A stretch of 64,000 nt of DNA from Hymenobacter jejuensis (GTDB lineage: Bacteria > Bacteroidota > Bacteroidia > Cytophagales > Hymenobacteraceae): the NCBI RefSeq assembly GCF_006337165.1, contig NZ_CP040896.1:3534001-3598000 (forward strand). The letters are read 5' to 3'. Of this stretch, positions 41,211-62,460 are shown one piece after another. The notes under the pieces are model-generated. The model searched no databases. It was not told where the DNA came from and was given only the letters and a program-made list of their open reading frames with translations. Numbering within the stretch: position 1 is the stretch's first letter; the number at the start of each line of letters is the position of its first letter. The position numbers were made by a program, and so were the translations under genes.

Positions 41211-41358
41211 GTAATAAGCACGAATAAGAGAAATGAAGAAATCGAACCGATATCGAACAGGAATAAACGGCGAACAGCAGCGCCCGAACCCTGTGAATGC
41301 TAACCGGATTTCCGCTTCAGGGTTTCGCTGGGAAGCTATTTGTCGTCTCATCCCGCCA

Positions 41359-41422
41359 ATCCGACGCTTCGGTAACATAAAATTTCATCCGCCTCGGCAG
41401 CCGGCCACCTTTGAGCCATCAC
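41359..41422 (+). promoter_or_regulatory. 64-bp upstream module shared with the TPR gene at 57030
   Basis: Ungapped alignment with 56928-56991, about 45 of 64 bases identical, including 17 in a row (ATCCGACGCTTCGGTAA) and GCCACnTTTG. The first 17 bp contain a CCGA-N4-TCGG dyad, and CACCTTTG (41406-41413) resembles a -7 TAnnTTTG box. Located 16-79 bp upstream of the receptor's ATG. Confidence 0.55.
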
Positions 41423-41437
41423 TTCGCTGCTACCCCG

Positions 41438-43648
41438 ATGAAACGTCTTCTACTCCCGCTGCTGCTCCTGTTGCTTACTGCGCTTCCGCTGTTAGCCCAA
41501 ACGCCTGCTACCACGCTTTCCGGCACCGTACGCGATGCGGCCGGTCAGCCGCTGCCGGGAGCCAATGTGTTTCTCAAATCAACCTTCGACGGCGCCAGCA
41601 CCGATTCGGTGGGCCGCTTTCGCTTCACCACGCGCCAAACGGGGACGTTGTCGCTGGTCGTGACGCTGCTGAGCTACCAGCTTCAAGAGCAACCTGTTGT
41701 GCTCGACGGTACTGTTAAACACTTCGCCATCACCCTGAAAGCGGCGCGCAATGAGCTGGGCTCAGTCGTGATTACGGCCGGTGCCTTCGAAGCCAGCGAC
41801 GAAAAGCGGGCCACCGTGCTTACCTCCCGCGATGTGGTAACCACGGCCGGCGCGCTCGCCGATGTCGCGGGCGCTCTGAACACCTTGCCGGGCATCACGC
41901 GCAACGGCGAAGAAGGCAAACTATTTGTGCGGGGCGGCGCGGCTGGCGAAACCAAGCAATACCTAGATGGGCTGCCTTTGCAAAGCCCTTACAACGCCAG
42001 CGTGTCGGGCGTACCGGCCCGCGGGCGCTTTACGCCGGATCTGTTCAAAGGCACGGTGTTCAGCACCGGCGGCTACTCGGCCGAGTATGGGCAGGCCCTG
42101 TCGGCGGCCGTGATTCTGAATTCTGTCGACCTGGAACCGGAAACCCAGACGGGCATTTCGCTGCTCTCGTTGGGGCAGGTAAGCTTGTCGCAGCGGCAAC
42201 GTTGGGAACGTTCGTCAGTGGCCGTGACCGGTAACTACATGAACATGAAACCCTATTTCGGGCTGGTGCCCCAGCGCCTGCTTACGGCTTACGAATCGGG
42301 CGGCGGCTCCGTCGCGTTTCGGCAGCGCACCGGCGACGTAGGCATGTTGAAAGTGTACGGCGCTTTCACCGGGCAACATTCGGGCGTGCGCACCCCCGAC
42401 GTTGAGTGGCAAAACGGCCGGCCCGTAGATTTGCGCAACACCAATGGCTATCTGAATGCGTCGTTTCGCAGTACGCTCCGGCGCGGCTGGTCGGTGCAAA
42501 CCGGCGTTGCCGCCACCCGCGACGAGCAAAAGCTGCATCTCGGCGTCCGGACTGCGGAGCCCGACGTGGCACAGGTGCACGAACTGGAACAATCGGTGGC
42601 AGGGCGCGTGGTGCTCACCAACGACTCGGTGAGCGCTTATTGGAACCTGAAAGTAGGCGCCGAAGGCTTGCAGCAGCGTTTTTTGCAAGATGCTTATTAT
42701 CAAGATGATACCAAATTGCCAACTCGGGCTTTCGACGAGCAACGGGCCGCAGGATTTGCCGAGGCCAATATTTCCTTCACCAACCAATTGGTAGCCCGCG
42801 TGGGCGGCCGCACCGAATATTCGCGCGTGCTGGGCCGCTGGAATGCCGCGCCGCGGGTAGCGCTGGCCTACCAAACCGACGAATACAGCCAATTATCTGC
42901 CGCTTGGGGCGACTTCTACCAAACGCCGGCCAACGACCTGCTGCTCAGCGCCCACCGCAACCCCGATCTGCGTTTTGAGCGCGCCACTCACTATCTGCTT
43001 ACCTATCAGCGCATTCACGACGACCGTACGCTGCGGGCCGAAGCTTACTACAAAAACTACGCACACCTGCTGCACTACGATGCCGCGCGACTCTACCAAC
43101 CGACCGCTTATCAAAGCACCGGCACGGGCTACGCCCGCGGGCTAGACCTGTTTTGGCGCGACCGCAAAACCGTCAAAAACCTTGACTACTGGGTGAGCTA
43201 CGGCCTGCTCGACACACGCCGCCAGCAGCGCGCCGACGCCAGCGTGGCCATGCCCACTTTTGCCTCGCGCCACAACCTGTCGGTGGTGAGCAAATACTGG
43301 GTGCAAAAGATGCACACGCTGTTTGGGGCGACTTACAGCTACGGCAGCCCACGCGCATCGTATGACCCTAGCTTTCAGCAGTTTCATACGCCTAGCTACC
43401 ACGATCTTAGCGTCAACTTGAGCTACGTGACCACGCTGTGGAACAACCTGACCATCGTGCACGTGTCGTGCTCCAACGTGCTGGGCCGCCAGAACGTGTT
43501 TGGCTACCGGTACGGCGCCACGCCCACTGCCGACCTGAATTACGCCCGCGTGGCCATCACGCCTTCGGCTCCGCGCATGGTGTTTGTGGTGCTCATGATC
43601 TCGATCAACAAAAAACGCCCCGCCGACACGAACACCGCTCCGGAGTAA
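41438..43648 (+). CDS. TonB-dependent receptor with carboxypeptidase-like domain
   Basis: 736 aa. Signal peptide 1-21 (LLLLLLTALPLLAQ), carboxypeptidase-regulatory-like domain (SGTVRDAAGQPLPGANVFLKS) at about 25-105, plug domain (NTLPGITRNGEEGKLFVRGG, YSAEYGQALSAAVIL) and a C-terminal beta-barrel ending RMVFVVLMISINKK. Unlike the 5' SusC it has no SusD partner, so it is probably for a siderophore, metal complex or other small ligand. The signal peptide starts at the ATG 41438. Alone in its transcript; its upstream module is shared with a TPR gene 15 kb away. Confidence 0.93.
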   Translation: MKRLLLPLLLLLLTALPLLAQTPATTLSGTVRDAAGQPLPGANVFLKSTFDGASTDSVGRFRFTTRQTGTLSLVVTLLSYQLQEQPVVLDGTVKHFAITLKAARNELGSVVITAGAFEASDEKRATVLTSRDVVTTAGALADVAGALNTLPGITRNGEEGKLFVRGGAAGETKQYLDGLPLQSPYNASVSGVPARGRFTPDLFKGTVFSTGGYSAEYGQALSAAVILNSVDLEPETQTGISLLSLGQVSLSQRQRWERSSVAVTGNYMNMKPYFGLVPQRLLTAYESGGGSVAFRQRTGDVGMLKVYGAFTGQHSGVRTPDVEWQNGRPVDLRNTNGYLNASFRSTLRRGWSVQTGVAATRDEQKLHLGVRTAEPDVAQVHELEQSVAGRVVLTNDSVSAYWNLKVGAEGLQQRFLQDAYYQDDTKLPTRAFDEQRAAGFAEANISFTNQLVARVGGRTEYSRVLGRWNAAPRVALAYQTDEYSQLSAAWGDFYQTPANDLLLSAHRNPDLRFERATHYLLTYQRIHDDRTLRAEAYYKNYAHLLHYDAARLYQPTAYQSTGTGYARGLDLFWRDRKTVKNLDYWVSYGLLDTRRQQRADASVAMPTFASRHNLSVVSKYWVQKMHTLFGATYSYGSPRASYDPSFQQFHTPSYHDLSVNLSYVTTLWNNLTIVHVSCSNVLGRQNVFGYRYGATPTADLNYARVAITPSAPRMVFVVLMISINKKRPADTNTAPE

Positions 43649-43669
43649 TGAATTAGTAGGACAAAAAAG

Positions 43670-43723
43670 AATACCGCAGAACCCATCCGCGCTTAAAGCG
43701 ATTGAGATGGGTTCTGCGGTATT
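43670..43723. terminator. Long-armed hairpin terminator between convergent genes
   Basis: 18-bp perfect arms (43670-43687, 43706-43723), 18-nt loop; separates the TonB receptor and the first giant T9SS gene. Confidence 0.8.
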
Positions 43724-43725
43724 AT

Positions 43726-43760
43726 GTTTATAAAAACTTGATAATCAATATTTTACCTAC
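43726..43760. repeat. AT-rich palindromic element, copy overlapping the stop of the first giant gene
   Basis: 35 bp, core TTGATAATCAA at 43738-43748. Its TTTTAC part supplies the TAA stop (43753-43755) of the minus-strand gene. Confidence 0.6.
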
Positions 43761-46700
43761 GTATTAATTTGAGATGTGCTTGCGCTTTCTGACCATTTAT
43801 GTGTAGGTAGTAGATTCCGTTGGCTGGCATCTGCTGCGAGAAATCAAGCTCTAGTAGCGAGCCGGCTGCGGCGGGGGTGAGTTTGCCAGTACCCAAAGTT
43901 GCGCCCACCGCGGAAACCAGCGTATAAGAAACCTCTCCTTGGAAAGCTTCTGGTAAGCTGAGGCGGAAGCGCCCGTTGTCGGAAGGGTTCGGATAGACAG
44001 CGGCTACCGAAGAAAAGCCCGAAGTCTTGTCGCCTTTAAGCGCCGCCGACAAGCCTGAGGCGGTGAGGGCGGCTTGGTTGGTTACCGTAAAGTTGACGGT
44101 GAGAGCCGTGCCAGCGGTTCCGTTGCCGCCACTGCTCGTGTAAGGCGTGGCTTTGAGAGTATAAGACCCTACTGGTGCCGGCCAAGCCGCGTAGTCAGGG
44201 CCGGAGTTGCCGAATAAGGCATAGGGGGCGCTGGTTTCGACTTGGGTGCGGTTTACGGTGCCGCTGAGCACCAGCACTACGCTGCCCACCGGATACGGGC
44301 TGGTGTTGGCCCGCACGTTCAGGTTTTGGGTCGGCAAGGTGGCCAGGTTGAGCACGTCGTTGGCCACCAAATCCCGGATCGGCTGGTCGGTGTCAGCATT
44401 CATCAAGGTCAAACTCGTGACTTGCTGTGGACTGCTCGGAACCGGATTGACGGTGATCTGGACTTGGTCGGCGGCGCTGGGGGCGTCGAGGTTGTCGGTG
44501 ACCACCAAGCTGAAGACGTAAGTGCCGGCCTGGCTCAGGCCGCTGACGGTGGGGTTTTGCGCGGTTTTGCCGGGGCTGAAGGTGGCCGTCGTAGGTCCGC
44601 CGGCCTGGCTCCAGGTGTAGGTCTTGATCGAGCCGTCGTCGGTGCCCGCCCCGGCCAGCGTGACACTGCTGGTGGGCAGCGTGATCGTCTGGTCGGGCCC
44701 CGCATTGGCCACCGGTGCCGGGTTGCTGCCTGAAGCTGTACTCAGTACTTCGATGGCCGAGATCTTAGCGTTGTCTTTGCCGCCGGTATTGAGGGAGGTA
44801 AAGTTGAGGTTGAGCGTGCCGTCGCTGACCGTGACGGGGAATGACTCGACGGTGGCCACATTTGTCCCCACCTTTTTGAAAATATCGTAGGCCGATAGCA
44901 CCTTATTACCTTCCAAGCTCACGTCGAACACACGCTGGCCCACGGCCGTCCAATAAATTTCGGCGAAGTGCAGCTTCACAGTGTACGTACCGTTGGCGAT
45001 GGGCAGGGCGTAGCTGAAATTGGTGCCAAAGCGCTCGGTTTGGTACAAGGCATCGTCGGTGGTGCCAGCGATGGCAGAGCCCGTTGAATACGTGCTGCCG
45101 GGGTTCGGTGAAAAGTACTGATCCGTTGTAAAGGCCCCAATCGACGTAGTGAGCGCCCCGCCGCCACTATTGAGACGGTACACGGCCGTAGGCTGACCAG
45201 TCGGAACCGGATTGACGGTAATCTGGACTTGGTCGGCGGCGCTGGGGGCGTCGAGGTTGTCGGTGACCACCAAGCTGAAGACGTAGGTGCCGGCCTGGCT
45301 CAGGCCGCTGACGCTGGGGTTCTGCGCGGTTTTGCCGGGGCTGAAGGTGGCCGTCAGGGGGCCGCTGGCCTGGCTCCAGGTGTAGGTCTTGACCGAGCCG
45401 TCGTCGGTGCCCGCCCCGGCCAGCGTAACGCTGCTGGTGGGCAGGGTAATGGTCTGGTCGGGGCCCGCATTGGCCACCGGCGCCGGGTTGCCACCCGACG
45501 TAGCATTGAAGATTTCGATGGCCGAAATTTTGGGGCGGTCCACACCGCCGTCGGCGGCCAGCGCGCTAAAATAGATGTTGAGCGTGCCGTCGGAGACGGT
45601 GGTAGTAAAGGTTTCGGTGGTAGCCGTAAAGGCACCTACCTTGCGGATGATATCATAATTGTCGAGCACCTTAGCGCCTTCGATAGATACGTCAAAGATG
45701 CGCTGCCCCACGCTGGACCAATAGATATCGGCGAAGTGCAGCGTCACAGTATACGTGCCGTTGGCCACCGGAAAATCGTAGCTATAAGCCCCTTTATCGG
45801 TGGACGAGCTACGCTCGGTTTGGTAGAGGGCATCGTCGTTGGTACCCGCAATGGCGTTGCCGGTCGAGTAAGTATACGCCGAGCCCGAATAATACTGATC
45901 GGGGGCGAAGGTACCCAGCGAAGTGGTTAAAGTGCCACCCCCCGCGTTGATGCGGTACACGGCTGGGCCGCCCGCGGTGGCTGGGTTTACATAAATCGTA
46001 ACCTGATCGGCGATGCTGGTCAGGGTTTTGTTGTCCGTGACGACGAGCGAAAATGTGTAGCTCCCGGCCTGGGTCAGGCCGCTGACGGTGGGGTTGGCCA
46101 CCGAGGTGCTCGAGAAGCTTGCCGTGGCCGGGCCGCCGGCTTGGCTCCAAGTATAGCCCGTGATGGTGCTGCCGCTGGCCGGCGTACCCGACCCAGCCAA
46201 GATTACCGAGCTAGTGGGTAGATTGATCGTTTGGTCGGGCCCCGCGTTGGCGAGCGGAGGCGTACCCGACGGGGCGGAGTCGTCGGCGCCCGCTACCCAT
46301 TGGATCAGGCGTTGGGCAAATGCCTTGTTCTGAACGCGGCTCAAATACGTGCCATCACCGGCGTTCCAAAAGCAGTTGCGATCGAAAAAGCCTGCGGCCC
46401 GACCCTGTCCGATTTTGGCTACCGACAGGGCCGCATCATTGGCCTGCAGCGGGCCGTCTAGGCTGTTGAGGTGCGCGGCAATCGGCGGTAGGTTCGCAAT
46501 AATAGTTGCCGGGGTAGTCGTCCGGATGGGGCTTACGCCTTCGGCCTCGATAGTAAGCCCGGCGTTTTTGTTGAAGTTGTTAATGTAGTGATTTACAGCC
46601 CATTGATCCATTGTGAAGGCGCCCTGGGTGTTGTCGTGCAGAAACTGCATCCCGAACTGGAGCATGATGTCGTTGTCGCTCAACATTCCTTCGGAGCTAT

Positions 46701-48354
46701 TGGCGCCACCGTTCTGCCAGCCAAAGGCCGCATCGGACCAGGCCACTACGCCACCGCCGGCATTTACCCACGTAGCTACGGCAGCGGCTTCGGCGGCAGT
46801 GAAGCGCCGGTTATTTGAGCTCAGTATCAGTACTTTATAACCGTTGAGCGTAGCCGCATTCAGCGTAGTATTGGCATCCAGCGCTTCGGTGGTCGTGAAC
46901 CCGGCATCCAGCAGCGCCTGATTGAATTGCGACATGCCCAAGCTGCCCGTGTCCGACAGCTTCATGTCGTGGATGGAGGGCGGAATGCTGCCGTACAGGT
47001 ATAGAATCTTTGGTTTTGAGCCCGATACCGTGAACGTTATGTTGGCAGTCGCATCGGGGTAGCCGGTGGCTTTGGCCGTGATGCTGGCCGTGTAGGTGCC
47101 GGCGGCGAGGCTGCCGGCGTTGGCCGTTACCTTTATTTCGGTGCCGCCCAGCAGGTCGATGGTGCCGGAAGTAGGGCTTACGCTCAGCCACGCCGGCAGG
47201 CCGCTTGTATCGATGGAGTAGGAGGGATTGCCGCTCTTGGTCCACAAAATGATATCACGGCTGGCGCTGGCACCGGCCACGGCACTCAGGGTAACCTGGC
47301 TGGGCCAAAAGCCGATGGTGTTGTTGGGGGTGCGGGTCTGGCTGCGTTTGCGGGTAGTGGTTTGTGGGTTGGTAGATTGGTTGAGGCCGCCGTTGGCCAC
47401 AATGTATTCATTACCAATCATTTCCGCACTGGGGCCAAACAGGTTGACTGGCAGGGGCAATTGCTCCGTCCAGCTATCGGTGGCAGGGTTGTAGACCGTT
47501 ACGTTGGGAATGACGTTGTCGGTGCCGTTGGGGCGGCCGCTGCGGCCGCCGGCCAATACGATGGTGCCATCCACGACGCAAGTGGCAGGCTCTGAGTGCG
47601 AACGGACATACGGCATGTCCTGCAACCGCGTCCAGACATCCGTCGAGGGGTCATAGACCTGCACGTAGTTCACGTCGGCAATTGCCCCGTCGTGACCGGT
47701 CTGGCCGCCCAGCGCGTAGATTTTGCCGGCGACCGCCCCGCTGGCAAAGTGGCAGCGGGGCAAGGGCATGCCTGCTGCCACGCCCCACCCGGCCCCGACG
47801 TTGTTCAGGTCGAGCACGTAGTGGGCCATCGAGCCCGTCTGGCGGTCTTCCAGCAGGCCCCCAAACGAGTGCAGCTTCCGGCCTATCCGGACCAGAGCGT
47901 TGCCGCCGCTCTTGGTGGGTAGCGGCGTGCCTTGGCTCCAGGTGTTGGTGGCTACGTCGTAGATCTGCAGCTTGTCGGAGTTAGGACCACCGCTCTGGCC
48001 CGACAAAAATCCGCCGGCGACATACACCTTCGTGCCATCGACGGCGATACCGGCATGGGTGACCGGAAAAGGCATATCAGCAATGTAGGACCAAGTGTTG
48101 GTGGCGGGGTCGTACACCTGGCACTTGGCCGTCGTGGTCACGCTGGGCGAGTCAAAGCCCGAGAACACGTACATCTTGTTGTTGATCATCACGCTGAAGC
48201 CAACCCAAGTAGGCGTGCCCGAAGGGGCCACGGTTACCCAGTTGCCGGTCTGGGCCCACCCAGGGGTAGCGCCTCCCAGCAGAAATAACACCAGCAGACC
48301 AATAAACAGCAGGCTTCTGACGGCCATCTGGGTAGAGTTTAATACGTATTTCAT
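43753..48354 (-). CDS. Giant T9SS-exported protein: kelch propeller, ThuA-like, PKD, malectin
   Basis: 1533 aa. Signal peptide (VLFLLGGATPGWAQ), kelch-type repeats at about 30-330 (NNKMYVFSGFD, VYVAGGF, IYALGGQTG), Ig-like at 345-445, ThuA/DUF4350-like at 448-690 (PKILYLYGS, LNGYKVLILSSNNRRF, GGGVVAWSD), PKD at 696-790, malectin at 796-950, PKD at 955-1048, malectin at 1056-1208, PKD at 1211-1305, a Cytophagales module ADTDQPIRDLVANDVLNL at 1311-1428, and a T9SS sorting domain (YPNPSDNGRF, ending LKLIRR). Likely secreted or surface-bound, with carbohydrate contacts through malectin. No enzyme motif clear. Parts are near-identical to the neighbour at 48513. Confidence 0.92.
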   Translation of the reverse strand: MKYVLNSTQMAVRSLLFIGLLVLFLLGGATPGWAQTGNWVTVAPSGTPTWVGFSVMINNKMYVFSGFDSPSVTTTAKCQVYDPATNTWSYIADMPFPVTHAGIAVDGTKVYVAGGFLSGQSGGPNSDKLQIYDVATNTWSQGTPLPTKSGGNALVRIGRKLHSFGGLLEDRQTGSMAHYVLDLNNVGAGWGVAAGMPLPRCHFASGAVAGKIYALGGQTGHDGAIADVNYVQVYDPSTDVWTRLQDMPYVRSHSEPATCVVDGTIVLAGGRSGRPNGTDNVIPNVTVYNPATDSWTEQLPLPVNLFGPSAEMIGNEYIVANGGLNQSTNPQTTTRKRSQTRTPNNTIGFWPSQVTLSAVAGASASRDIILWTKSGNPSYSIDTSGLPAWLSVSPTSGTIDLLGGTEIKVTANAGSLAAGTYTASITAKATGYPDATANITFTVSGSKPKILYLYGSIPPSIHDMKLSDTGSLGMSQFNQALLDAGFTTTEALDANTTLNAATLNGYKVLILSSNNRRFTAAEAAAVATWVNAGGGVVAWSDAAFGWQNGGANSSEGMLSDNDIMLQFGMQFLHDNTQGAFTMDQWAVNHYINNFNKNAGLTIEAEGVSPIRTTTPATIIANLPPIAAHLNSLDGPLQANDAALSVAKIGQGRAAGFFDRNCFWNAGDGTYLSRVQNKAFAQRLIQWVAGADDSAPSGTPPLANAGPDQTINLPTSSVILAGSGTPASGSTITGYTWSQAGGPATASFSSTSVANPTVSGLTQAGSYTFSLVVTDNKTLTSIADQVTIYVNPATAGGPAVYRINAGGGTLTTSLGTFAPDQYYSGSAYTYSTGNAIAGTNDDALYQTERSSSTDKGAYSYDFPVANGTYTVTLHFADIYWSSVGQRIFDVSIEGAKVLDNYDIIRKVGAFTATTETFTTTVSDGTLNIYFSALAADGGVDRPKISAIEIFNATSGGNPAPVANAGPDQTITLPTSSVTLAGAGTDDGSVKTYTWSQASGPLTATFSPGKTAQNPSVSGLSQAGTYVFSLVVTDNLDAPSAADQVQITVNPVPTGQPTAVYRLNSGGGALTTSIGAFTTDQYFSPNPGSTYSTGSAIAGTTDDALYQTERFGTNFSYALPIANGTYTVKLHFAEIYWTAVGQRVFDVSLEGNKVLSAYDIFKKVGTNVATVESFPVTVSDGTLNLNFTSLNTGGKDNAKISAIEVLSTASGSNPAPVANAGPDQTITLPTSSVTLAGAGTDDGSIKTYTWSQAGGPTTATFSPGKTAQNPTVSGLSQAGTYVFSLVVTDNLDAPSAADQVQITVNPVPSSPQQVTSLTLMNADTDQPIRDLVANDVLNLATLPTQNLNVRANTSPYPVGSVVLVLSGTVNRTQVETSAPYALFGNSGPDYAAWPAPVGSYTLKATPYTSSGGNGTAGTALTVNFTVTNQAALTASGLSAALKGDKTSGFSSVAAVYPNPSDNGRFRLSLPEAFQGEVSYTLVSAVGATLGTGKLTPAAAGSLLELDFSQQMPANGIYYLHINGQKAQAHLKLIRR
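44436..44725. repeat. PKD-encoding direct repeat, copy A
   Basis: About 290 bp, more than 90% identical to 45201-45490, encoding PKD3; a third close relative lies in the neighbouring gene at about 51484-51770. Confidence 0.75.
45201..45490. repeat. PKD-encoding direct repeat, copy B
   Basis: Encodes PKD2 of the same protein, offset 765 bp from copy A (255 codons, in frame). Contains a 77-bp stretch (45316-45392) identical to 51591-51667 in the other giant gene. Confidence 0.75.
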
Positions 48355-48512
48355 TGTGAATCAGTTGTTTATGTACCTGCTTCGTATGTGCTTGACTTCA
48401 GGCGTATTGGGGCTAGGCCGGGCCCGCTATGTCGGGGGGGGCGTGCCTCGGGGTTGGGTAAGGGCGTGTTTTTCCCCAACCCCGGGCAGGAGTGCCCCTC
48501 TTGGGACCCGCC

Positions 48513-51500
48513 TCATTCGCGCATGAGCTTGATTTGGGTATTCAGCTTCTGGTTCTCCAGCCGCAGGTAGTAGACGCCCACATTTTTCACCTGCTCCGAG
48601 AAATCCAGCTCCAGCGTAGTCGTGGGCTCGGGCAAGTTGATCGTCTTGCTCGCCAGCGTCGTCCCGATTACAGATACCAGGCTATAAGTAACCTGTCCTT
48701 GCACGGGCTGCGAAAGCGCCAGCCGGAAATGCCCATCAGTTGAAGGGTTGGGGTAGGCCGTTACCAGCGTAGAAATGCCCGGCCGGGCTTCTTTTTTCAG
48801 CGCGGCCGGCCCACCGGCAAACGCCGCATTGTTGATGACCGAGAAGCTGAGGGTCAGGGCGGTACCGGCCGTGCCTACAGTGGCTACGGTCGTGAAGGGC
48901 GTAGCCGTGAGGGAATAATTGCCCAGCGCGGGCGTCCAGGGGCTGGTGGCGCCAAATAGCAGGTAAGGCGAAACGGCCCGGGTTACGTGCTGCACAGCCG
49001 TACCACCCAGCGCAAACCTGACGCTATCGACCACGGCCGGATTGGCATTGGCCCGGATGTTCAGATGCTGCGTCGATAAGGTGGCCAGGTTGAGCACGTC
49101 GTTGGCCACCAGGTCGCGGATCGTCAGGCCGGTGTCGGCGTCGAGGAGCGTGAAGCTGACCACCTGCGAAGCGGGCGCCGGAGCCGGTACCGGATTGACG
49201 GTGATCGTAACTTGGTCGGCCGGGCTGGGTACATCCAGATTGTCGGTGACCACCAGCGAGAAGACGTAGGTGCCGGCTAGCGTCAGGCCGCTGGCGGTGG
49301 GGCCGGCCACGGCGGCACTCGGCGCAAAAGTCGCCGTGGCCGGCCCGCTGACCTGCGTCCAAGCGTAGGTTTTGATCGTGCCGTCGTCCGTGCCCGCCCC
49401 GGCCAGCGTGACGCTGCTCGTGGGCAGGGTGATGGTCTGATCCGGCCCGGCGTTGGCTACCGGCGCGGTGTTGGCTGGCTTCACGATGACGGTCACCTGG
49501 TCGGGCGCACTGGCAAGATCCAGGTTGTCCGTAACGATTAAGTCGAAGACGTAGGTGCCCTCCAGCAAGGCACTGGCAGTGAGGGAGGCGGTAGCCGCCC
49601 CGCTTAAGGTAGCGGTACCGGGCCCGCTGACCTGGCTCCAGGCGTAAGTCTTGATCGAGCCGTCGTCGGTGCCCGCCCCTACCAGCGTGACGCTATTAGT
49701 CGGCAAGGTGATCGTCTTATCCAAGCCCGCATCGGCCACCGGAGCCGGGTTGACCTTGGGTGGGCTAACCGTAATTGTAACCTGGTCGGCCGGGCTAGGT
49801 ACATCTAGGTCGTCGGTGACCACCAGCGAGAAGACGTAGGTGCCGGCTAGCGTCAGGCCGCTGGCGGTGGGGCCGGCCACGGCGGCACTCGGCGCAAAAG
49901 TCGCCGTGGCCGGCCCGCTGACCTGCGTCCAAGCGTAGGTTTTGATCGTGCCGTCGTCCGTGCCCGCCCCGGCCAGCGTGACGCTGCTCGTGGGCAGATT
50001 AATCGTTTGGTCCGGACCCGCGTTGGCCACCGGCGCGGTGTTGACCTTAGGTGGCTGGTTGGTTACCGTAAAGCTGACGGTCAGGGCCGTGCCGGCCGTG
50101 CCGTTGCCGTTGCCAGCCGTGAAGGGGGTTCCCTTTATTGAGTACGCGCCGACGACAATAGCCGGCGTCCAAGCCGCGTAGTCAGCACCGGAGTTTCCGA
50201 ACAGCGCATACGGCGCACCAGTCTCGCTTTGGGTGCGACTCTGGGTGCCGCTGAGCACCATCACCACGCTGCCTACTGGATACGGACTGGTGTTCGCCCG
50301 AATGTTGAGGTTCTTGGTGGGCAGCGTGGCCAGATTGAGTACGTCGTTGGCCACCAGATCCCGGATCGGCTGGTCGGTGTCGGCGTTGATCAGCGTAAAG
50401 CTGACCACCTGCTGTGCCGCCGCCGGGGCTGCATTGACCGTGATGCTCACCTGGTCGGCGGGGCTGCTCAGGGTTTTGCTATCCGTGACGATCAGTGCGA
50501 AGACGTAGGTACCCGGCGTCGTCAGGCCGCTGACGGTGGGGTTGACGACGGTTTTGCTGGGCGTGAAGGTGGCCGTCGTCGGCCCGCTGACCTGCGTCCA
50601 GGCGTAGCCCGTGATGGTGCTGCCGCTGGCGGCCGTGCCCGCCCCGGCCAGCGTGACGCTGCTGGCGGGCAGGGTGATGGTCTGATCTGGCCCGGCGTTG
50701 GCTACCGGCGGCGTACCGGTTGTAGTGCTAAGTATCTCAATAGCAGATACTTTGGGGTTGTCTTTGCCGCCGGTATTGAGGGAGGTAAAGTTGAGGTTGA
50801 GCGTGCCGTCGCTGACCGTGACCGGGAAAGTTTCGACGGTAGCTGTCTTGGCGCCCACTTTTTTGACGATGTCATAGGCAGTCAAGACTTTGGTGCCTTC
50901 CAGGCTCACGTCGAACACGCGCTGGCCCAAGGCCGTCCAGTACAGCTCGGCGAAGTGCAGCTTCACAGTGTACGTACCGTTGGCGATGGGCAGGGCGTAG
51001 GCGAAGGCTCCGTTAGTGCCGTACCGCTCGGTTTGGTACAAGGCATCGTCGGTGGTGCCGGCGATGGCCGCGCTCGTCGAAAAGGTGCTGCCCGGCGTAG
51101 GCGAAAAGTACTGGTCGGTGGCGAAGGCTCCGATCGAGGTGGTAAGCGCCCCGCCGCCGGAGTTGAGCCGATAGATAGCCGTAGGCTGGCCAGTGGATGC
51201 TGGGTTAACCGTGATGCTCACCTGGTCGGCGGGGCTGCTCAGGGTTTTGCTATCCGTGACGATAAGCGAGAAGACGTAGGTGCCGGCCGTGGTCAGACCA
51301 CTGACGCTGGGCGCCGCCACGGTATTGTTGGGCGCAAAAGTCGCCGTCACGGGGCCACTAACCTGGCTCCAGGCGTAGCCCGTGATGGTGCTGCCGCTGG
51401 CGGCCGTGCCCGCCCCGGCCAGCGTGACGCTGCTGGTGGGCAAGGTGATGGTCTGGTCCGGACCCGCGTTGGCCACCGGTGGAGCATTCACCGTAATCGT

Positions 51501-54500
51501 GACCTGGTCGGCGGCACTGGGGGCGTCAAGGTTGTCGGTGACCACGAGGGAAAAGACGTAAGTGCCGGCCTGGGTCAAGCCGCTGACGGTGGGGTTCTGC
51601 GCGGTTTTGCCGGGGCTGAAGGTGGCCGTCAGGGGGCCGCTGGCCTGGCTCCAGGTGTAGGTCTTGATCGAGCCGTCGTCGGTGCCCGACCCGGCCAGCG
51701 TCGCCGAGCTGGTGGGCAGGGTAATGGTCTGATCCGGGCCTGCGTTGGCCACCGGCGCCGGGTTGCTGCCTGCGCTCAGGTCATAGACTTCGATGGCCGA
51801 AATTTTGGCATTGTCTACTCCGCCGTCAGATGCCAGCGAGCTGAAATTGATGTTCAGCGCGTCGTCGGTAACCGAAACAGTAAAGGTTTCGGTAGTGGCT
51901 GTGTTGGCGCCTACTTTCTTAACGATGTCGTAGTTATCCAGCAGCTTATTGCCTTCAATGGACACGTCGAAAAGACGCTGGCCGGCGGCCGTCCAATAGA
52001 GCTCGGCGAAGTGAAGGACTACCTTGTATTGCTTCCCGCTGCTCACCGCAAAGGCATAGCCAAAGGAATTGCCAAAGCGCTCGGTCTGGTAGAGCGCGTC
52101 GTCGGTGGTGCCGGCAATGGCGTTGCCCGAGGAATAGGTGCTGCCCGGCGTGGGCGAGAAATACTGATCGGCGGCAAATGCGCCCAACGACGTGGTCAGG
52201 GCACCATCGCCCGCGTTGATGCGATAGATCGCAACGCCGCTGCCCGGCGCCGGATTGACGGTGACGATAACCTGGTCGGCGGGGCTGCTCAGGGTTTTGC
52301 TATCCGTGACGATAAGCGAGAAGACGTAAGTACCAGTGGATAAGCCAGTTACGCTAGGGTTGACGACGGTTTTGCTGGGCGTGAAGGTGGCCGTCGTCGG
52401 CCCGCTGACCTGCGTCCAGGCGTAGCCCGTGATGGTGCTGCCGCTGGCGGCCGTGCCCGCCCCGGCCAGCGTGACGCTGCTGGTGGGCAAGGTGATGGTC
52501 TGGTCCGGACCCGCGTTGGCCACAGGGTTGCCCGTGACGCCTGTGCTAAGTATCTCAATAGCAGATACTTTGGGGTTGTCTTTGCCGCCGGTATTGAGGG
52601 AGGTAAAGTTGAGGTTGAGCGTGCCGTCGCTGACCGTGACCGGGAAAGACTCGGTGGTGGCCGCGTTGGCACCCACTTTCTTGAAAATGTCGTAGGCCGA
52701 TAGCACCTTATTACCTTCCAGGCTCACGTCGAACACGCGCTGGCCCACGGCCGTCCAGTACAGCTCGGCAAAGTGCAGGATTACGGTGTACTGCCCGTTG
52801 GTCACGGGCAGCGCATACGAGAAAGTGCCGGCTCCGCCGAACCGTTCGGTTTGGTACAGCGCGTCGTCGTTCGTGCCGGAAATAGCAGCCGTTGAGGAAT
52901 AAGTGCTGCCAGGGCTAGGTGAGAAATACTGATCCGCGGCAAACGCCCCTAGCGAAGTGCCCAAGGCGCCGCCACCCGCATTGAGCCGGTAAACCGGCGT
53001 GCCGCTGGAAGGCGCTCCGTCGGCCGTGACGTAAATAAAATCCCAGACGGCCGTAAAGGGCGTAGCGCCCCGCGAGGTAGCGATTAAACCTACTGCGTAC
53101 GATTTGCCAGTTTGCAGGGCGCTTAAAAGCGCCCCCGTAACCTGAATAGCGGGTCCTAGGTTGGTAATGGTTCCGCCGTTAGAGGAGTACTTGGGCTGCA
53201 CCATTCCGGTGACGGGGTTGACGGCGAAGAAGAAATCCAGCGTAGACCCCGGAATGCCGCCTGGCAGCGGATACGATGTGGCGACGGGTACGCCGGCGTT
53301 TTCATACACTACTTCAAGGCCGCCCACGCCGCCGTTGGCGGTGATCGCAATTTTCAGGTAGTTATCCTGGTCGCCGTTGCCGAGGTAAATGCCCTGCGAC
53401 TGAAAATTCTTGGGAGTTTGGCCATTAAAAAAAGGTCCCAGCAAACGGCCTTGCACCGTGAAGGGAGCAGGCGAGGACTTTACCCCAAACTGAAAGGCAT
53501 CTTCCTGATCGTTTTTGGTGCCGAGCGCGTCGCCAGGGGAAACGTTTACAATTGAAAATGCTCCAACTGCGCCGCCGGCAATCAGGTTCTGCTCAAAAAA
53601 TAAGTCGGAGTAAACACTATCCTTGTTAACCATTAGCCCCGTGAAACCCAGCCCAAATAGGCCGGTTCCGGGATAATTGTTGAACAGATCGTATTTGATG
53701 GGCAGTGCAGTGGTCAGCCCGTTGTTGGCATCCAGCGCAAAGAAATCCAAGTTGTCGGCGATGCCGTCGTTGTCGTCGTCGTTGTCGTTGAGGTCCGAAA
53801 CGAAGTCGTGGTCAGCGTCGGGCGGTACGCTCGAGGCGGAGCAGGGCTGGGTGCCGTTGTCGATCTCATCGGCGTTGGTGTAGCCATCTTGGTCGTCGTC
53901 GTTGGCGTCGTAGTTGCCGGTGCAGGTCAGGAAATCCTGGGGTTCAAACACCGTGATGGCATTGGCGCCGTACGTAGCGGCCCACACCGTGCCCGGAAAC
54001 ACGTCGGTATCGCCCTGCGCAATAATGTCCAGCGGAGTAGAGCCAAACCCCGACGCAAAGGGCAGATCTTGATTTAGCTTGTCAGTCGAGTTGCGCGTGT
54101 TGGTAACGTCGGTGCCCGCTGCGTTAAACGAAATCTTGACGATTTTTCCATCGTAGCTACAGGCCAGTAAGGAGCCCTTCAGCGCGTTGTTAAAATTGGA
54201 AGCGGTATACTCCGCAGTGCCGTTGGTAGAAGCATCAAAGGTTAACAAGGCCTTGCTTTTGGAGCTTCCAGGCATCTGGAAATCGCCTTCGATGGGGTTG
54301 GCCGTCGTGACCGGGGGCCAGTCGGCAGGCAAGGGAGACGGGCCTGTTTTGGTGGTGCGGAAAACACCTGAGGTGCCGTTGTGGGTGTAGAGCCCGGCCC
54401 CGTTGGGGTTGGCCCGGGTAGGCGTGGGGTGCCCGCCATAGTAGCTACCGGGCGTGTACGTGCCCAGGGTGCCGATGTAGTGCAGGTTATCGAGATTGTT

Positions 54501-55700
54501 TACCGTTCCTTCGGTGGCAGTAGGAGTAGAAGAGCCGGGCTCGTTCGGCACGTAATTGTTTGTGACATTGGCAGTTCCCTCGTTTTCTGGGTAGCCGCCC
54601 CAGCCTTGGTTGGCGCCGTTGTCGATGGTATAGACGCGGCGGCTTTGCGTAATAACCAGGTCGTAGGGATTGCGGTAGCCCGGCGAAAAAATCTGTACGG
54701 GGCCGCCCGGAACGATCTTGGCCTGGTTCAGGCCGTCGTTGCCGCCAAACGGGTCGTTGGGGTCGGAGCCATCGGGGTTGTTGGCGCGGTCCGGGTCGTC
54801 TACCGTCGGCAAATCGTATTTATACGCCGAGTTGCCGCTGCCTTTGGTGGGCAGGGCATTGATGGCCGTAAGGTTGATGGACAGAATAGCGGCCGAAAGC
54901 GCGTATTCAGGCGTGTAAGCAAAGTTGGTGGACGGCGACCCGGCATTGGTGTGCCCACCCTGGGCCAGATACAAGGTGTTGGTCTGTGGGTCCAGCTGCA
55001 TCCCGTTGCTGGAGTGGTTTTCCTCCGAGCGCGGCAACCCTCGCACCAAATCCAGCTTCGACCAAGTGCCCCCCGAGCGGCTCAGGAGCGAAACAATGCC
55101 GGAGTTCGTGTCCAGGTTTAGGTCGCCGCTCGGGCCGCCAATGCGGCTGTCGCTGGAAGACACATAAATGACCGGGTTGGCAGCGGTGCCTTTTACCAAA
55201 ATGCCGGTTACCTGCCGGGTCGTGACGGAGGCATTCAGGACGCCGTTATCGTTGTGGTTCGGGATCAGGTTAATCAGGTTGATGATCTCGGTCGCCGTGA
55301 CGGCATACTTGTTGGTGCCGTTTTTTACGACCGTAAAGGCTTTGATAACGCCGTCTTGCTGAGACACATACAACCGTCCATCCGGGCCGAACTGCAGGGA
55401 CGTAGGGTTGGTAATGTTCGCTCCGCTCAGGCCGCTGGGCGAAAAGTTATACTGCGCTGCTGCCAGCAGCGCAAAGGACAGAGGCTCGGGTGGCAGCTTG
55501 GCCTTTTTCTTCTTTTTCTCTTTGTTGGCTTGTTGCGCTTGGCTGGGGGCTGGCGCCTCGCCCTGCTTTATCGGAATGGGCGTTTGGGCCAGCGAGCCCA
55601 TTGGAAAAGCGAGGGTTAAAAGGATGCTACTCAAGGCAAGTAAAACAAGCCGGCTTGGGCTAAAGTATCTCCCACAGTCGTAGCGTTTGCGGTGGTTCAT
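48513..55700 (-). CDS. Giant T9SS-exported protein: beta-propeller, TSP3, lectin-like, malectin and PKD repeats
   Basis: 2395 aa. Signal peptide ending FPMGSLAQ, then a Lys-rich EKKKKKAK linker. Propeller of sorbosone-dehydrogenase type at about 90-590 (GPDGRLYVSQQDGVIKAF, SPGYRNPYDLVI). TSP3-like calcium loops at 595-665 (ANDDDQDGYTNADE, DNDDDNDGIADN). LamG/lectin-like domain at 665-895. Malectins at 900-1057, 1155-1310 and 1507-1662; PKDs at 1058, 1311, 1407, 1663, 1885, 1983 and 2077; two ADTD-type modules at 1760-1880 and 2177-2287. T9SS domain at the end (YPNPSTDGHF, LMRE). Probably a surface or secreted carbohydrate-binding dehydrogenase. Start MNHRKRYDCG at 55700. Confidence 0.92.
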   Translation of the reverse strand: MNHRKRYDCGRYFSPSRLVLLALSSILLTLAFPMGSLAQTPIPIKQGEAPAPSQAQQANKEKKKKKAKLPPEPLSFALLAAAQYNFSPSGLSGANITNPTSLQFGPDGRLYVSQQDGVIKAFTVVKNGTNKYAVTATEIINLINLIPNHNDNGVLNASVTTRQVTGILVKGTAANPVIYVSSSDSRIGGPSGDLNLDTNSGIVSLLSRSGGTWSKLDLVRGLPRSEENHSSNGMQLDPQTNTLYLAQGGHTNAGSPSTNFAYTPEYALSAAILSINLTAINALPTKGSGNSAYKYDLPTVDDPDRANNPDGSDPNDPFGGNDGLNQAKIVPGGPVQIFSPGYRNPYDLVITQSRRVYTIDNGANQGWGGYPENEGTANVTNNYVPNEPGSSTPTATEGTVNNLDNLHYIGTLGTYTPGSYYGGHPTPTRANPNGAGLYTHNGTSGVFRTTKTGPSPLPADWPPVTTANPIEGDFQMPGSSKSKALLTFDASTNGTAEYTASNFNNALKGSLLACSYDGKIVKISFNAAGTDVTNTRNSTDKLNQDLPFASGFGSTPLDIIAQGDTDVFPGTVWAATYGANAITVFEPQDFLTCTGNYDANDDDQDGYTNADEIDNGTQPCSASSVPPDADHDFVSDLNDNDDDNDGIADNLDFFALDANNGLTTALPIKYDLFNNYPGTGLFGLGFTGLMVNKDSVYSDLFFEQNLIAGGAVGAFSIVNVSPGDALGTKNDQEDAFQFGVKSSPAPFTVQGRLLGPFFNGQTPKNFQSQGIYLGNGDQDNYLKIAITANGGVGGLEVVYENAGVPVATSYPLPGGIPGSTLDFFFAVNPVTGMVQPKYSSNGGTITNLGPAIQVTGALLSALQTGKSYAVGLIATSRGATPFTAVWDFIYVTADGAPSSGTPVYRLNAGGGALGTSLGAFAADQYFSPSPGSTYSSTAAISGTNDDALYQTERFGGAGTFSYALPVTNGQYTVILHFAELYWTAVGQRVFDVSLEGNKVLSAYDIFKKVGANAATTESFPVTVSDGTLNLNFTSLNTGGKDNPKVSAIEILSTGVTGNPVANAGPDQTITLPTSSVTLAGAGTAASGSTITGYAWTQVSGPTTATFTPSKTVVNPSVTGLSTGTYVFSLIVTDSKTLSSPADQVIVTVNPAPGSGVAIYRINAGDGALTTSLGAFAADQYFSPTPGSTYSSGNAIAGTTDDALYQTERFGNSFGYAFAVSSGKQYKVVLHFAELYWTAAGQRLFDVSIEGNKLLDNYDIVKKVGANTATTETFTVSVTDDALNINFSSLASDGGVDNAKISAIEVYDLSAGSNPAPVANAGPDQTITLPTSSATLAGSGTDDGSIKTYTWSQASGPLTATFSPGKTAQNPTVSGLTQAGTYVFSLVVTDNLDAPSAADQVTITVNAPPVANAGPDQTITLPTSSVTLAGAGTAASGSTITGYAWSQVSGPVTATFAPNNTVAAPSVSGLTTAGTYVFSLIVTDSKTLSSPADQVSITVNPASTGQPTAIYRLNSGGGALTTSIGAFATDQYFSPTPGSTFSTSAAIAGTTDDALYQTERYGTNGAFAYALPIANGTYTVKLHFAELYWTALGQRVFDVSLEGTKVLTAYDIVKKVGAKTATVETFPVTVSDGTLNLNFTSLNTGGKDNPKVSAIEILSTTTGTPPVANAGPDQTITLPASSVTLAGAGTAASGSTITGYAWTQVSGPTTATFTPSKTVVNPTVSGLTTPGTYVFALIVTDSKTLSSPADQVSITVNAAPAAAQQVVSFTLINADTDQPIRDLVANDVLNLATLPTKNLNIRANTSPYPVGSVVMVLSGTQSRTQSETGAPYALFGNSGADYAAWTPAIVVGAYSIKGTPFTAGNGNGTAGTALTVSFTVTNQPPKVNTAPVANAGPDQTINLPTSSVTLAGAGTDDGTIKTYAWTQVSGPATATFAPSAAVAGPTASGLTLAGTYVFSLVVTDDLDVPSPADQVTITVSPPKVNPAPVADAGLDKTITLPTNSVTLVGAGTDDGSIKTYAWSQVSGPGTATLSGAATASLTASALLEGTYVFDLIVTDNLDLASAPDQVTVIVKPANTAPVANAGPDQTITLPTSSVTLAGAGTDDGTIKTYAWTQVSGPATATFAPSAAVAGPTASGLTLAGTYVFSLVVTDNLDVPSPADQVTITVNPVPAPAPASQVVSFTLLDADTGLTIRDLVANDVLNLATLSTQHLNIRANANPAVVDSVRFALGGTAVQHVTRAVSPYLLFGATSPWTPALGNYSLTATPFTTVATVGTAGTALTLSFSVINNAAFAGGPAALKKEARPGISTLVTAYPNPSTDGHFRLALSQPVQGQVTYSLVSVIGTTLASKTINLPEPTTTLELDFSEQVKNVGVYYLRLENQKLNTQIKLMRE
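49242..49427. repeat. Perfect 186-bp direct repeat, copy A
   Basis: Identical to 49812-49997; both encode the core of a PKD domain, 570 bp (190 codons) apart, in frame. Confidence 0.9.
49812..49997. repeat. Perfect 186-bp direct repeat, copy B
   Basis: Exact copy of 49242-49427, with a diverged PKD domain between them, suggesting recent duplication or gene conversion. Confidence 0.9.
50725..50830. repeat. Perfect 106-bp direct repeat, copy A
   Basis: Identical to 52543-52648; encodes the C-terminal end of a malectin domain. Confidence 0.88.
52543..52648. repeat. Perfect 106-bp direct repeat, copy B
   Basis: Exact copy of 50725-50830, in another malectin module 1818 bp away, in frame (606 codons). 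Confidence 0.88.
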
Positions 55701-57029
55701 GGCACAAGGGTTGAAAGAAGTATAACGCCCAGGACAGCAGTAAAACACTGTATATCAAGGGTTTAAGTATAAAGTATGCTGTATTGAATAGAAAAGCTGT
55801 GCAGGGCGCACGCTTGCTAAGGGCCCGAGTGGCCAGCTTAGAATACCAAGTGGTCTAGGTAGAAGAACGATCGGTGGGGCCCCGCGTGGCGGGGCAGAAA
55901 CTATCTGCGTAGTAGCCTAAAAAGCGCGGCAGGCTGGGAAGGTAAATGCGTAGGCACCAGTTAGAAATCCGGACGAGGGGGCATTCGGCAGCGATAGAAA
56001 GCCAGATGCTAAAAGCGCTGAACAGGGCACCGAAGGGCCGCTGCAAAAGCGAAGTCGGGGCGGGGCACAGGTAACCCATCCGAAAGGGCTACTATGAAGC
56101 TACTAAGTCGCGGGGTAAAAAGCTAGTTTTTAGTGTAGTAAAAAACTAGGTATCAGGTCATTGGCTAAGCCGTGAGTAGCAGGCTTGGGCGAGTGCAGCA
56201 GGCAGATTCATCCTTACGGCGGGCCCATCCATCCCAAGCGCTCATAAACAACCTGCCCCGAGCGCAAGGGTAGTGCTTCTGACCCTGTTGCCAAGGCGAA
56301 GCACACTAGAGTCTGCGGGTTAACCCGAGTGCGAGTAACCTGATAAGTGGTATAAAGTGCTATCATATTCCGGTTTTATTATATTATCCATCGCTTTTTC
56401 CTCCGTTCACTTCAGCCTGACCAACTTCTCAGCAACCCACTCCGCTGCGAAACCAATCAAATCAAGTGACTGGTACTTATCAAATAGTTTTTATAAACAT
56501 AATCATAAGAATTAAGATGAGAATCAAACGTGCTGCTTTTTTTTATTGGGAATTAGTGCCAATCTCAGCTTTATAGCCAGTCTACTTAACTCTACTGGGT
56601 CTGCTTATTAAGGGCGTATATAAATAGCCTTCTGATTTTGAATTCATTTATCTGATAATCAATAATATATATTGGATAATATACTTCTTATTTTGGTAAA
56701 TCATCTAATAAGATAAGCTGGGTGGGAGTCATAAAATTTATACCTCAGGAGAAACTATTTTTTGCTCGTTTTATTGTAATAATGCAATTTTAACGGTTAT
56801 ATTCTATCTGCGCGGATCTGCGTAGGGGCAAGCATAAGCAGAAGTTGAGCTTCGTTAGTGACTGACCGGGAGGCGAATGGGCGCCGGACTGGCCTTGGTC
56901 CTGCTCCCCCAACACCCCATCTGCCTGATCCGACGCTTCGGTAAGCTTTAATTTCGAGGGAGACGGCGGAATGCCACATTTGGGTCATCGCCTAGCAGTT
57001 ATTACGCTTCACCTTATTTTTCTGCGCCC
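55701..57029. other. 1.3-kb gene-poor region
   Basis: No convincing gene. 55701-56340 is GC-rich with one poor-quality minus-strand frame; 56123-56149 holds a small hairpin (CTAGTTTTT and AAAAACTAG); CGGGTTAACCCG is a palindrome near 56317. 56340-56800 is AT-rich, with TGATAATCAATAATATATA and TTTTTATAAACATAATC motifs resembling pieces of the 35-bp repeat family. The last 100 bp contain the shared upstream module of the next gene. It may hold an ncRNA or be a decayed locus, but I cannot name either. Confidence 0.5.
56928..56991 (+). promoter_or_regulatory. 64-bp upstream module shared with the TonB receptor gene
   Basis: Second copy of the module described at 41359-41422. CACATTTG at 56975-56982 occupies the -7-like position, and the ATG is 102 bp from the module start. 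Confidence 0.55.
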
Positions 57030-57731
57030 ATGAAAACCACTCTGATTCTTCTTGCCCTGGCCTGCACCTCGTTTTCGGCTGCGGCCCAGCAGCCAGCCTC
57101 GCCCAAAGCAACGACCACGCAACCTGTGCCGGCTGGGTACTCCGAGGGGCTGGCTGCCACCATTACTGAGCTGATGAGCACCGGTGACGTGGCCCAGCTC
57201 AAAGAAACCGCCGGCAAGCTGGAGCGGGCCGCAGCCATAGCGCCAACCGATTGGCTGCCAAGGTATTATCAAGCCTATGCCCACCTGATTGTATGCTTTC
57301 AAAGCAAGGAAGAGGGGGACGTAAAAGATAAGTACCTCGACCAGGCCGAAGCCGCCCTGGCGCAAGCCCGCAAGCTTGGGGGCGACGAGTCAGAACTGCT
57401 TGTGCTGCAAGGCTATATCTACCAGGCACGCTTGGGTATTTCGCCCATGGCCCGTTCGGCGAAGTACTCCATGATGGTGAAAGAAGTGCTGGAGCAGGCC
57501 AAAAAGCTGAACCCGGCCAACCCACGCATTTACTTGGTACAGGGCAACAACGTGTACTTTACGCCCAAGATGTTTGGCGGCGGACCAGAAGCGGCCAAGC
57601 CCCTTTTCGAAGAAGCCAAAGCGCGTTTTGCCGCCTTCAAGCCCGCCACTCCTTTAGCCCCGGCGTGGGGCGAACGGCAAGTGCAAGCCCGATTGGCCGC
57701 CTACACGGCAGCTACCGCAGATGCTAAATAA
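57030..57731 (+). CDS. Secreted TPR-like protein of unknown function
   Basis: 233 aa. Signal peptide (residues 1-19, ending SAAAQQP), then helical TPR-like repeats: APTDWLPRYYQAYAHLI, YLDQAEAALAQARKLGGDESE, LLVLQGYIYQARL, VLEQAKKLNPANPRIYLVQG and PEAAKPLFEEAKARFAAF. Periplasmic or surface helical protein, probably for protein-protein contact. It precedes a LytS/LytTR pair on the same strand, 117 bp away, and shares an upstream module with the TonB receptor at 41438. Confidence 0.85.
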   Translation: MKTTLILLALACTSFSAAAQQPASPKATTTQPVPAGYSEGLAATITELMSTGDVAQLKETAGKLERAAAIAPTDWLPRYYQAYAHLIVCFQSKEEGDVKDKYLDQAEAALAQARKLGGDESELLVLQGYIYQARLGISPMARSAKYSMMVKEVLEQAKKLNPANPRIYLVQGNNVYFTPKMFGGGPEAAKPLFEEAKARFAAFKPATPLAPAWGERQVQARLAAYTAATADAK

Positions 57732-57848
57732 GTTATTGAAAATCAGATAGCTAAACTTGATAGTAGCATTGTAATGAAAGGTGAAACGCAGGGAAAATTC
57801 GCTCCGCAGTCGTTCCCTACTTATCTTTCTGTCGCTCAGTTTCCCGTT

Positions 57849-62366: not shown

Positions 62367-62460
62367 CCGGCTTCGGTGCGCCGGCAACTTACGCAGAAGT
62401 AAAGGGTTGCTCAAGCTGCGGGCGCCCGCAGCTTGAGCATTAGCCGGCGGTGTGGGCAGC

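Follow-up and report, generated by a model that had tools for sequence, protein, structure and literature searches.

A candidate LytTR-activated promoter module shared by a TonB-dependent receptor gene and a HusA-like operon in Hymenobacter jejuensis

Genes and matching modules in the window

The window, i.e. the whole stretch of 64,000 nucleotides of Hymenobacter jejuensis DNA that was analyzed (contig NZ_CP040896.1, positions 3,534,001 to 3,598,000), contains a TonB-dependent receptor gene and, further downstream on the same strand, a gene for a HusA-like protein, apparently the first of an operon that also encodes a LytS-type kinase and a LytTR regulator. The distance from the end of the receptor gene at 43648 to the start of the HusA-like gene at 57030 is 13.4 kb, not the 15 kb given in the first-pass annotation. 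The genes considered here are as follows.

41438-43648, plus strand: TonB-dependent receptor gene, probably HusB-like, with CarbopepD_reg_2 and Plug domains
43753-48354, minus strand: ORF of 1533 aa between the modules, with exact DNA stretches in common with the neighbouring 2411-aa ORF
48513-55748, minus strand: ORF of 2411 aa between the modules; its C-terminal 495 aa, when searched, gave PKD domains and a Por_Secre_tail match
57030-57731, plus strand: gene of the HusA-like protein (the "TPR gene"), whose N-terminus looks, by eye, like a signal peptide
57774-58922, plus strand: LytS-type histidine kinase gene (PF06580)
58982-59785, plus strand: LytTR response regulator gene (Response_reg and LytTR domains), the proposed binder of the modules
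60496-62414, minus strand: second kinase/LytTR pair, paralogous to the first

Two segments, 41359-41422 (copy 1) and 56928-56991 (copy 2), align without gaps and are identical at 45 of 64 bases. The longest identity common to both modules is the 17-base stretch ATCCGACGCTTCGGTAA, and the boxes CACCTTTG (copy 1) and CACATTTG (copy 2) lie at equal spacing from it, so that both the match and the evenly spaced CACnTTTG box described in the first-pass annotation hold. Chance was considered as an explanation for this similarity and ruled out, since 1488 random pairs of 250-bp window segments (repeat genes excluded) gave a best 64-base match of 38 and a longest exact match of 13. The genome (5.09 Mb) contains exactly two copies of the 16-mer TCCGACGCTTCGGTAA, and the three closest other places differ from it by two mismatches. 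The modules end 15 and 38 bp 5' of the start codons (ATG 41438 for the receptor and ATG 57030 for the HusA-like protein), a correction to the 80-100 bp first stated.

The listed start of a pirin ORF (40332-41378) falls within copy 1. Since relatives mostly align only from residue ~44-62, its true start is probably near 41210, which would make the copy 1 module intergenic.

A tandem repeat upstream of a candidate promoter

The modules were compared with those of relatives in an alignment of 99 upstream regions (44 of receptor genes and 55 of HusA-like genes; 97 from relatives plus the window's two), anchored on the 16-mer. Regions were selected for having at most three mismatches to the 16-mer within 140 bp of the projected start, a procedure that favours columns 0 to +15 only. 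The layout that emerged is ACGCTTCAT-N12-ACGCTTCGG, with a period of 21 bp, followed by N10, TTTC, N19, and CACYTTTG. Columns -17 to -7, which played no part in the selection, read ACGCTTCATCC and lie exactly 21 bp 5' of ACGCTTCGGYAAC (n = 99). When the alignment was compared with itself, the offset of 21 bp upstream scored 6.43 out of 9; the remaining upstream offsets between 10 and 45 scored at most 3.71, and downstream offsets at most 4.79. LytTR operators have been described as two repeats of 9-11 nt separated by a spacer of 11-13 nt (PMC4847170), and the direct repeat in the relatives consists of a 9-mer, a 12-bp spacer, and a 9-mer.

The repeat was then scored as a tandem of ACNSTTCR with a mark of at least 12 out of 14, a pattern devised after viewing the alignment, which included the same sequences. 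Spacing controls and random windows were scored with the same patterns as the real upstream regions (ACNSTTCR here and the looser ACNNTTCR in the phylum-wide test described later), and loci whose protein match started after residue 60 were left out of the upstream collection and the tandem count. The mark was reached at 21 bp in 125 of 151 upstream regions, compared with at most 18 of 151 at any other spacing between 17 and 26 bp and 10 of 2261 random windows. When the count is restricted to the Hymenobacter/Solirubrum group, with the window counted in, at least 12/14 was scored at this spacing by 51 of 61 upstream regions of receptor genes and by 62 of 65 of HusA-type genes, the other 10 and 3, respectively, falling below it. 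In a set of named loci (Solirubrum puertoriconensis and eleven Hymenobacter), the tandem was found 5' of all 12 HusA-type genes and of all nine receptor genes whose own upstream region was covered; this receptor count leaves out two artefact rows in which the receptor runs off the sequence end, and the set, with apparently 7 of 12 contigs shared with the family set, is not a wholly independent repeat of the count above.

The window copies themselves score 11 (receptor gene, which misses the 12/14 mark) and 12, because the upstream half-site has drifted in both (8/11 and 7/11 identity to ACGCTTCATCC), and the repeat is therefore hidden in the window. Moreover, the two upstream halves fall outside the 64-bp segments first noted. 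The elements of the two copies, all on the plus strand and placed by the alignment, are listed below.

41343-41353, plus strand: upstream LytTR-type half-site of copy 1, TCGTCTCATCC, drifted (8/11 to ACGCTTCATCC)
41364-41376, plus strand: downstream half-site of copy 1, ACGCTTCGGTAAC, 21 bp after the first half-site
41383-41386, plus strand: -33-like element of copy 1, TTTC
41406-41413, plus strand: -7-like box of copy 1, CACCTTTG, 19 bp after TTTC
56912-56922, plus strand: upstream LytTR-type half-site of copy 2, ACACCCCATCT, drifted (7/11)
56933-56945, plus strand: downstream half-site of copy 2, ACGCTTCGGTAAG
56952-56955, plus strand: -33-like element of copy 2, TTTC
56975-56982, plus strand: -7-like box of copy 2, CACATTTG

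The operator had first been sought in a CCGA-N4-TCGG dyad, on which a dimeric regulator could sit. This dyad is present in both window copies, and its exact form recurs in 65 of the 126 upstream regions from the Hymenobacter/Solirubrum group, but the dyad block is part of the direct repeat, and the receptor upstream regions of sister genera have the repeat in 12 of 12 cases and the exact dyad in none of the 12. The conserved element is the direct repeat, and binding of a dimer to the dyad appears extremely improbable.

Downstream of the repeat, the columns of the 99-region alignment place TTTC 10 bp after the second half-site. Among 124 rows, 122 had a -7 box matching at five or more of six scored positions, at 42 bp from the second half-site in 109 rows and at 43 bp in 13; the search for this box was confined to 34-51 bp past the half-site, and ties were settled in favour of 42. 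All six scored positions of YAnnTTTG (Y allowed for T) were matched in 113 of the 124 rows. The first letter of the 122 boxes is C in 119, G in three, and never T, and the -33 element is TTTC in 83 of 124 rows, this being the commonest form, with other letters in the remainder. The C-initial -7 box and the TTTC -33 element suggest a weak promoter that would depend on an activator.

A regulator acting in the opposite sense, as a repressor, has a precedent in CoxC, a LytTR protein that represses (PMC11347149). However, the CoxC operator, as described in that source, overlaps the -35 box, whereas in the module 10 bp separate the end of the repeat from the -33 element, the arrangement found in activated promoters, and the near-invariant C at the start of the -7 box, unlike TAnnTTTG, would fit a promoter in need of help. 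Repression is thus improbable in our judgment, and we take activation as the working model.

Linkage, history, and regulator association of the module

A site model was built from 36 modules of relatives, excluding the window copies. Applied to the genome, it returned the two window sites at 68.9 and 50.0 bits (E 1.3e-18 and 1.0e-12), followed by a third site at 17 bits (E 0.019). Scoring with the model was limited to the top candidates of a first look, 150 for the window genome and 30 for each family genome, which means that weak sites can be missed. Among these candidates a larger regulon in the window genome did not appear: there were 10 lower model hits (E 0.02 to 5.5), nine of them inside listed ORFs. 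The single lower hit between ORFs (L179) lies just 5' of a membrane-protein gene. Together with the 21-bp LytTR-type tandem, the two strong genome-wide sites support the earlier suggestion of a shared promoter plus operator and putative coregulation.

Across the family, the exact 16-mer was found in 21 of 150 genomes (32 sites), and all 30 sites outside the window lie within 6 kb of a homologue of the 57030 protein. Model matches at E ≤0.001 occurred in 80 of 150 genomes, most commonly as two per genome, and matches to the 57030 protein at E ≤0.001 in 83 of 150. At 72 of 80 loci around such homologues, the receptor, the 57030-type gene, the kinase, and the regulator follow one another in a single order and orientation; at the remaining eight, the receptor (six loci) or the regulator (two loci) is not within the sequence covered. 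In one genome (G076:C1:3157860-3159189), one module match is found 5' of the HusA-like gene, and two more lie near the receptor at 1.2 kb from each other.

The receptor and the 57030-type gene are separated by 8-102 bp at 12 loci of sister genera and by 121 bp to 8.6 kb within the Hymenobacter/Solirubrum group (negative values at L141, L142, and L168 reflect broken or misassigned receptor matches). The 13.4 kb of the window is the largest gap measured with both genes co-oriented in one stretch. In the sister genera the repeat that precedes the receptor gene in 12 of 12 cases is found 5' of none of 13 HusA-like genes, which makes it probable that copying of the switch took place within the Hymenobacter lineage. 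We infer that the ancestral state was a single operator serving a receptor-HusA-kinase-regulator operon and that the present arrangement followed from it. If one promoter once served the four genes and was then copied, the receptor would have become separable, which is the situation in the window genome and also, through a rearrangement, in genome G108.

Further sites were inspected as 20 stretches chosen among the matches listed. Three of these carry a full-length receptor gene. At L197 (G108), the receptor gene, which has kept its module, is on the opposite strand, 27 kb away from the HusA-like gene. At L196 (G100), it lies on a separate contig, which may be a mere assembly break, and at L183 (G070) an intact receptor and its site occur without a HusA-like gene and without a close regulator orthologue (best match 48%, paralogues only). 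L181 and L182 have truncated receptor genes, and L193 a kinase-regulator pair. The truncated genes belong to G128 and G130, which have kept the site but have no regulator match (E ≤1e-40) and no HusA-like match; these well-conserved modules are a decaying copy of the system. Conversely, G016, G036, G056, and G088 have kept the regulator (70-77%), as has G106, with no receptor match at E ≤1e-40. G096 has no site (E ≤0.001) and no receptor match, and its regulator paralogues reach at most 49% and its HusA-type match is weak (29%).

In the other 14 stretches the site precedes a Zn-protease/RimK-type cluster (nine), an alpha/beta hydrolase gene (three), or a small membrane-protein gene (two); these labels come from Pfam for L195 and L198 and otherwise from resemblance judged by eye. 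The module-like site lies 5' of the Zn-protease/RimK-type cluster at L185, L186, L188, L190, L192, L194, L195, L199, and L200, and a 2TM-like gene comes first in at least six of these nine (by eye; Pfam for L195 only), which makes the cluster a possible further target. In the window genome, no more than a weak repeat (12/14) precedes the counterpart of this 2TM gene. At L184, L187, and L198, the site lies immediately 5' of an exported-looking alpha/beta hydrolase gene (Pfam for L198 only).

The kinase and the proposed binder have the composition of a LytS/LytTR two-component system, in that a PF06580 kinase adjoins a regulator with receiver and LytTR domains. They differ from an LRS, i.e. a regulator with an inhibitory membrane protein and no kinase, in that kinase and receiver domains are present. 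In a sequence search of the PDB with the regulator, the two alignments shown span the receiver domain.

Association of the repeat with such systems was assessed across the phylum, where a HusA-like profile matched 89 of 395 genomes. Loci were taken from 40 of the 86 matching genomes outside the family, mostly top-scoring ones with some hand-picked from lower ranks. A co-oriented receptor gene lies less than 5 kb upstream at 38 of the 40, and 18 of these loci also have a co-oriented kinase and LytTR regulator. The repeat was scored here with ACNNTTCR at 10/12 or better, a pattern set after the ACNSTTCR counts. It was found 5' of the receptor at 16 of 18 loci with the kinase and regulator versus 5 of 20 loci without them (n = 38, with L261 and L265 left out as they have no receptor; Fisher p 8.5e-5, with loci treated as independent). 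At the loci with the pair, other spacings between 17 and 26 bp gave at most 6 of 18, and the background was 46 of 1000. The two exceptions among the 18, L281 and L285, have weak kinase/regulator matches, and the 5 of 20 loci that have the repeat without a local co-oriented pair exceed the background (p 0.002). This co-occurrence, together with the four-gene linkage at 72 of 80 loci, strengthens what had been a guess in the first-pass annotation, namely a link of the modules to the nearby LytTR systems.

At five HusA-receptor loci that lack a LytTR system nearby, a palindrome, GGTTTAT-N-ATAAACTA, lies close to the receptor start (L249:2304, L253:2590, L258:2416, L273:2558, and L275:2559, with the HusA-like gene turned to the plus strand), which suggests a different regulator there.

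The repeat could also be bound by another LytTR regulator than the one at 58982, for example that of the paralogous pair at 60496-62414 on the minus strand. In favour of this, the window regulators share 52% identity, an opposite-strand LytTR regulator neighbours the first one at 44 of 80 loci of relatives as well as in the window, and G070 has kept the site and an intact receptor with regulator paralogues only. Yet the second pair is found at none of 13 sister-genus loci (sequence covered to 0.6-2.1 kb past the regulator), where the repeat precedes all 12 receptor genes scored, and across the phylum the repeat accompanies the cassette's own kinase and regulator. In the upstream stretch of the second pair that was looked at, no convincing repeat was found. 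Binding by a regulator other than that of the operon seems very unlikely, and we infer that the 58982 protein is the one that would bind the repeat and activate.

The HusA-like protein and the proposed circuit

The 57030 protein matched no Pfam model above the cut-off, TPR families included. Its predicted structure (mean pLDDT 83) has HusA of Porphyromonas gingivalis as its best Foldseek match (E 3.2e-8, TM 0.71/0.81), and a profile search of the PDB returned HusA alone (E 4.9e-36). HusA is the sole solved structure matched by fold at E ≤0.001 and by profile at E ≤0.1. Predicted fold and profile identify the protein as homologous to HusA, a porphyrin haemophore. The earlier label "TPR gene" is thus incomplete; HusA has a TPR-like fold (PMC6173696).

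HusA binds porphyrins in a hydrophobic groove with no evidence of iron ligation, and is thought to hand them to the receptor HusB (PMC6173696, PMC10100897). Residues were paired by eye from the profile alignment, with HusA numbering deduced from the W130-Q131-x-Y133 pattern. In this pairing three groove residues are alike in kind (F80 to F90, V124 to I137, and Y164 to F177) and two are lost (L123 to G136 and W130 to S143); further pairings are P126 to P139 and M116 to Y129. F90 is invariant across 12 aligned sequences. Since the groove is only partly kept, porphyrin is a best guess for the ligand. The receptor at 41438-43648 is probably HusB-like, given the linkage of such receptors to HusA-like genes at 38 of 40 loci outside the family; a PDB sequence search with it gave nothing at E ≤0.001.

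The HusA-like protein may instead have ceased to bind porphyrin and act as a receptor partner or kinase co-sensor with another ligand. The changes of W130, L123, and M116 in the pairing made by eye would be in keeping with this, as would the five relatives (G016, G036, G056, G088, and G106) that have the regulator but no receptor match at E ≤1e-40. Set against it are the exclusive match to HusA by fold and profile, the invariant F90 at the position of F80, F177 at the position of Y164 (the HusA Y164F variant keeps the haem environment; PMC6173696), and the receptor partner found upstream at 38 of 40 loci outside the family. We regard a change of ligand as a possibility of some weight, though on the whole doubtful, and proceed with porphyrin as the putative ligand.

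Since the module fits each geometric point of LytTR operators, activation of the receptor gene and of the regulator's own operon is the most likely role of the regulator. We consider it quite probable, from the sequence comparisons made here, that both modules are copies of one LytTR-activated promoter driving the receptor gene and the HusA-like/kinase/regulator operon. In the proposed circuit, the kinase (57774-58922) would phosphorylate the regulator (58982-59785), two molecules of which would occupy the tandem half-sites, on the same helix face owing to the 21-bp period, just 5' of the TTTC-N19-CACYTTTG promoter. The bound regulator would switch the promoter on, copy 1 driving the TonB-dependent receptor gene and copy 2 the operon of the HusA-like protein, in which the regulator itself is encoded after the kinase, so that positive feedback would arise. 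Regulator activity would thereby raise uptake and the regulator's own level together, the receptor and the HusA-like protein presumably forming a Hus-like porphyrin/haem uptake pair. The operator would have been copied 5' of the HusA-like gene in the Hymenobacter lineage, after which other genes could have lodged between the two targets with coregulation unbroken.

A broader idea, which is speculative and more likely wrong than right, is that of a four-gene cassette, present in many Bacteroidota, whose kinase would be informed of porphyrin status across the envelope by the catcher or the receptor, in a Fec-like manner with LytTR output; regulators would have been swapped in lineages where a different palindrome takes the place of the tandem.

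The locus provides a LytTR system of Bacteroidota with a concrete candidate operator and with target genes. The tie of this system to HusA-type genes makes the kinase input testable with porphyrins, haem, and iron. It also appears to present an operon split in two, with coregulation preserved through operator copying. The porphyrin use of the HusA fold has been proposed to have arisen within Porphyromonas evolution (PMC6173696). HusA homologues with a receptor partner occur well outside Porphyromonas, and porphyrin use would be older if it is true that these homologues bind porphyrin. Our literature search, most subscription papers being outside its scope, found no paper joining LytTR and HusA among the matches listed and none joining LytTR and Hymenobacter.

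As in the Hus system of P. gingivalis (HusA, HusB), a HusA homologue of predicted HusA fold is linked to a TonB-dependent receptor in the window; compared with the P. gingivalis hus operon, the window locus adds a LytS/LytTR system. The available portion of PMC10100897 describes HusC and HusD as being without assigned function and expression as iron/haem-dependent, and mentions no LytTR regulator. The candidate promoter shares the TTTG core of the Bacteroidota primary-sigma promoter, which has a TAnnTTTG -7 box (PMC9723704), and has the 19-bp spacer seen in Bacteroides LRS-like promoters (PMC6193735), whereas its -7 box begins with C and its commonest -33 element is TTTC. In the Bacteroides LRS-like operons, similarly to the module, direct repeats stand 11 bp 5' of a promoter of the form TGTA-19-TATCTTTG (PMC6193735); these operons encode membrane-spanning LytTR regulators, in contrast to the kinase and receiver-LytTR regulator of the window. 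In LRS operons more generally, most repeats lie 12 bp apart with a strong bias to a position 10 bp 5' of the -35 element, and the repeats mediate positive autoregulation (PMC6193735). Autoregulation of the own operon, as proposed for the window regulator, is thus known from the LRS of S. mutans (PMC6193735, PMC4847170). Like LytTR operators of the AgrA, ComE, YpdB, and HdrR/BrsR type, as far as these are covered in the sources cited, the module has half-sites about 21 bp apart that end 10 bp before the -33/-35 element. Unlike other LytTR operators, its half-sites, ACGCTTCAT and ACGCTTCGG, are lineage-specific and stand before a TonB-dependent receptor gene and a HusA-like operon.
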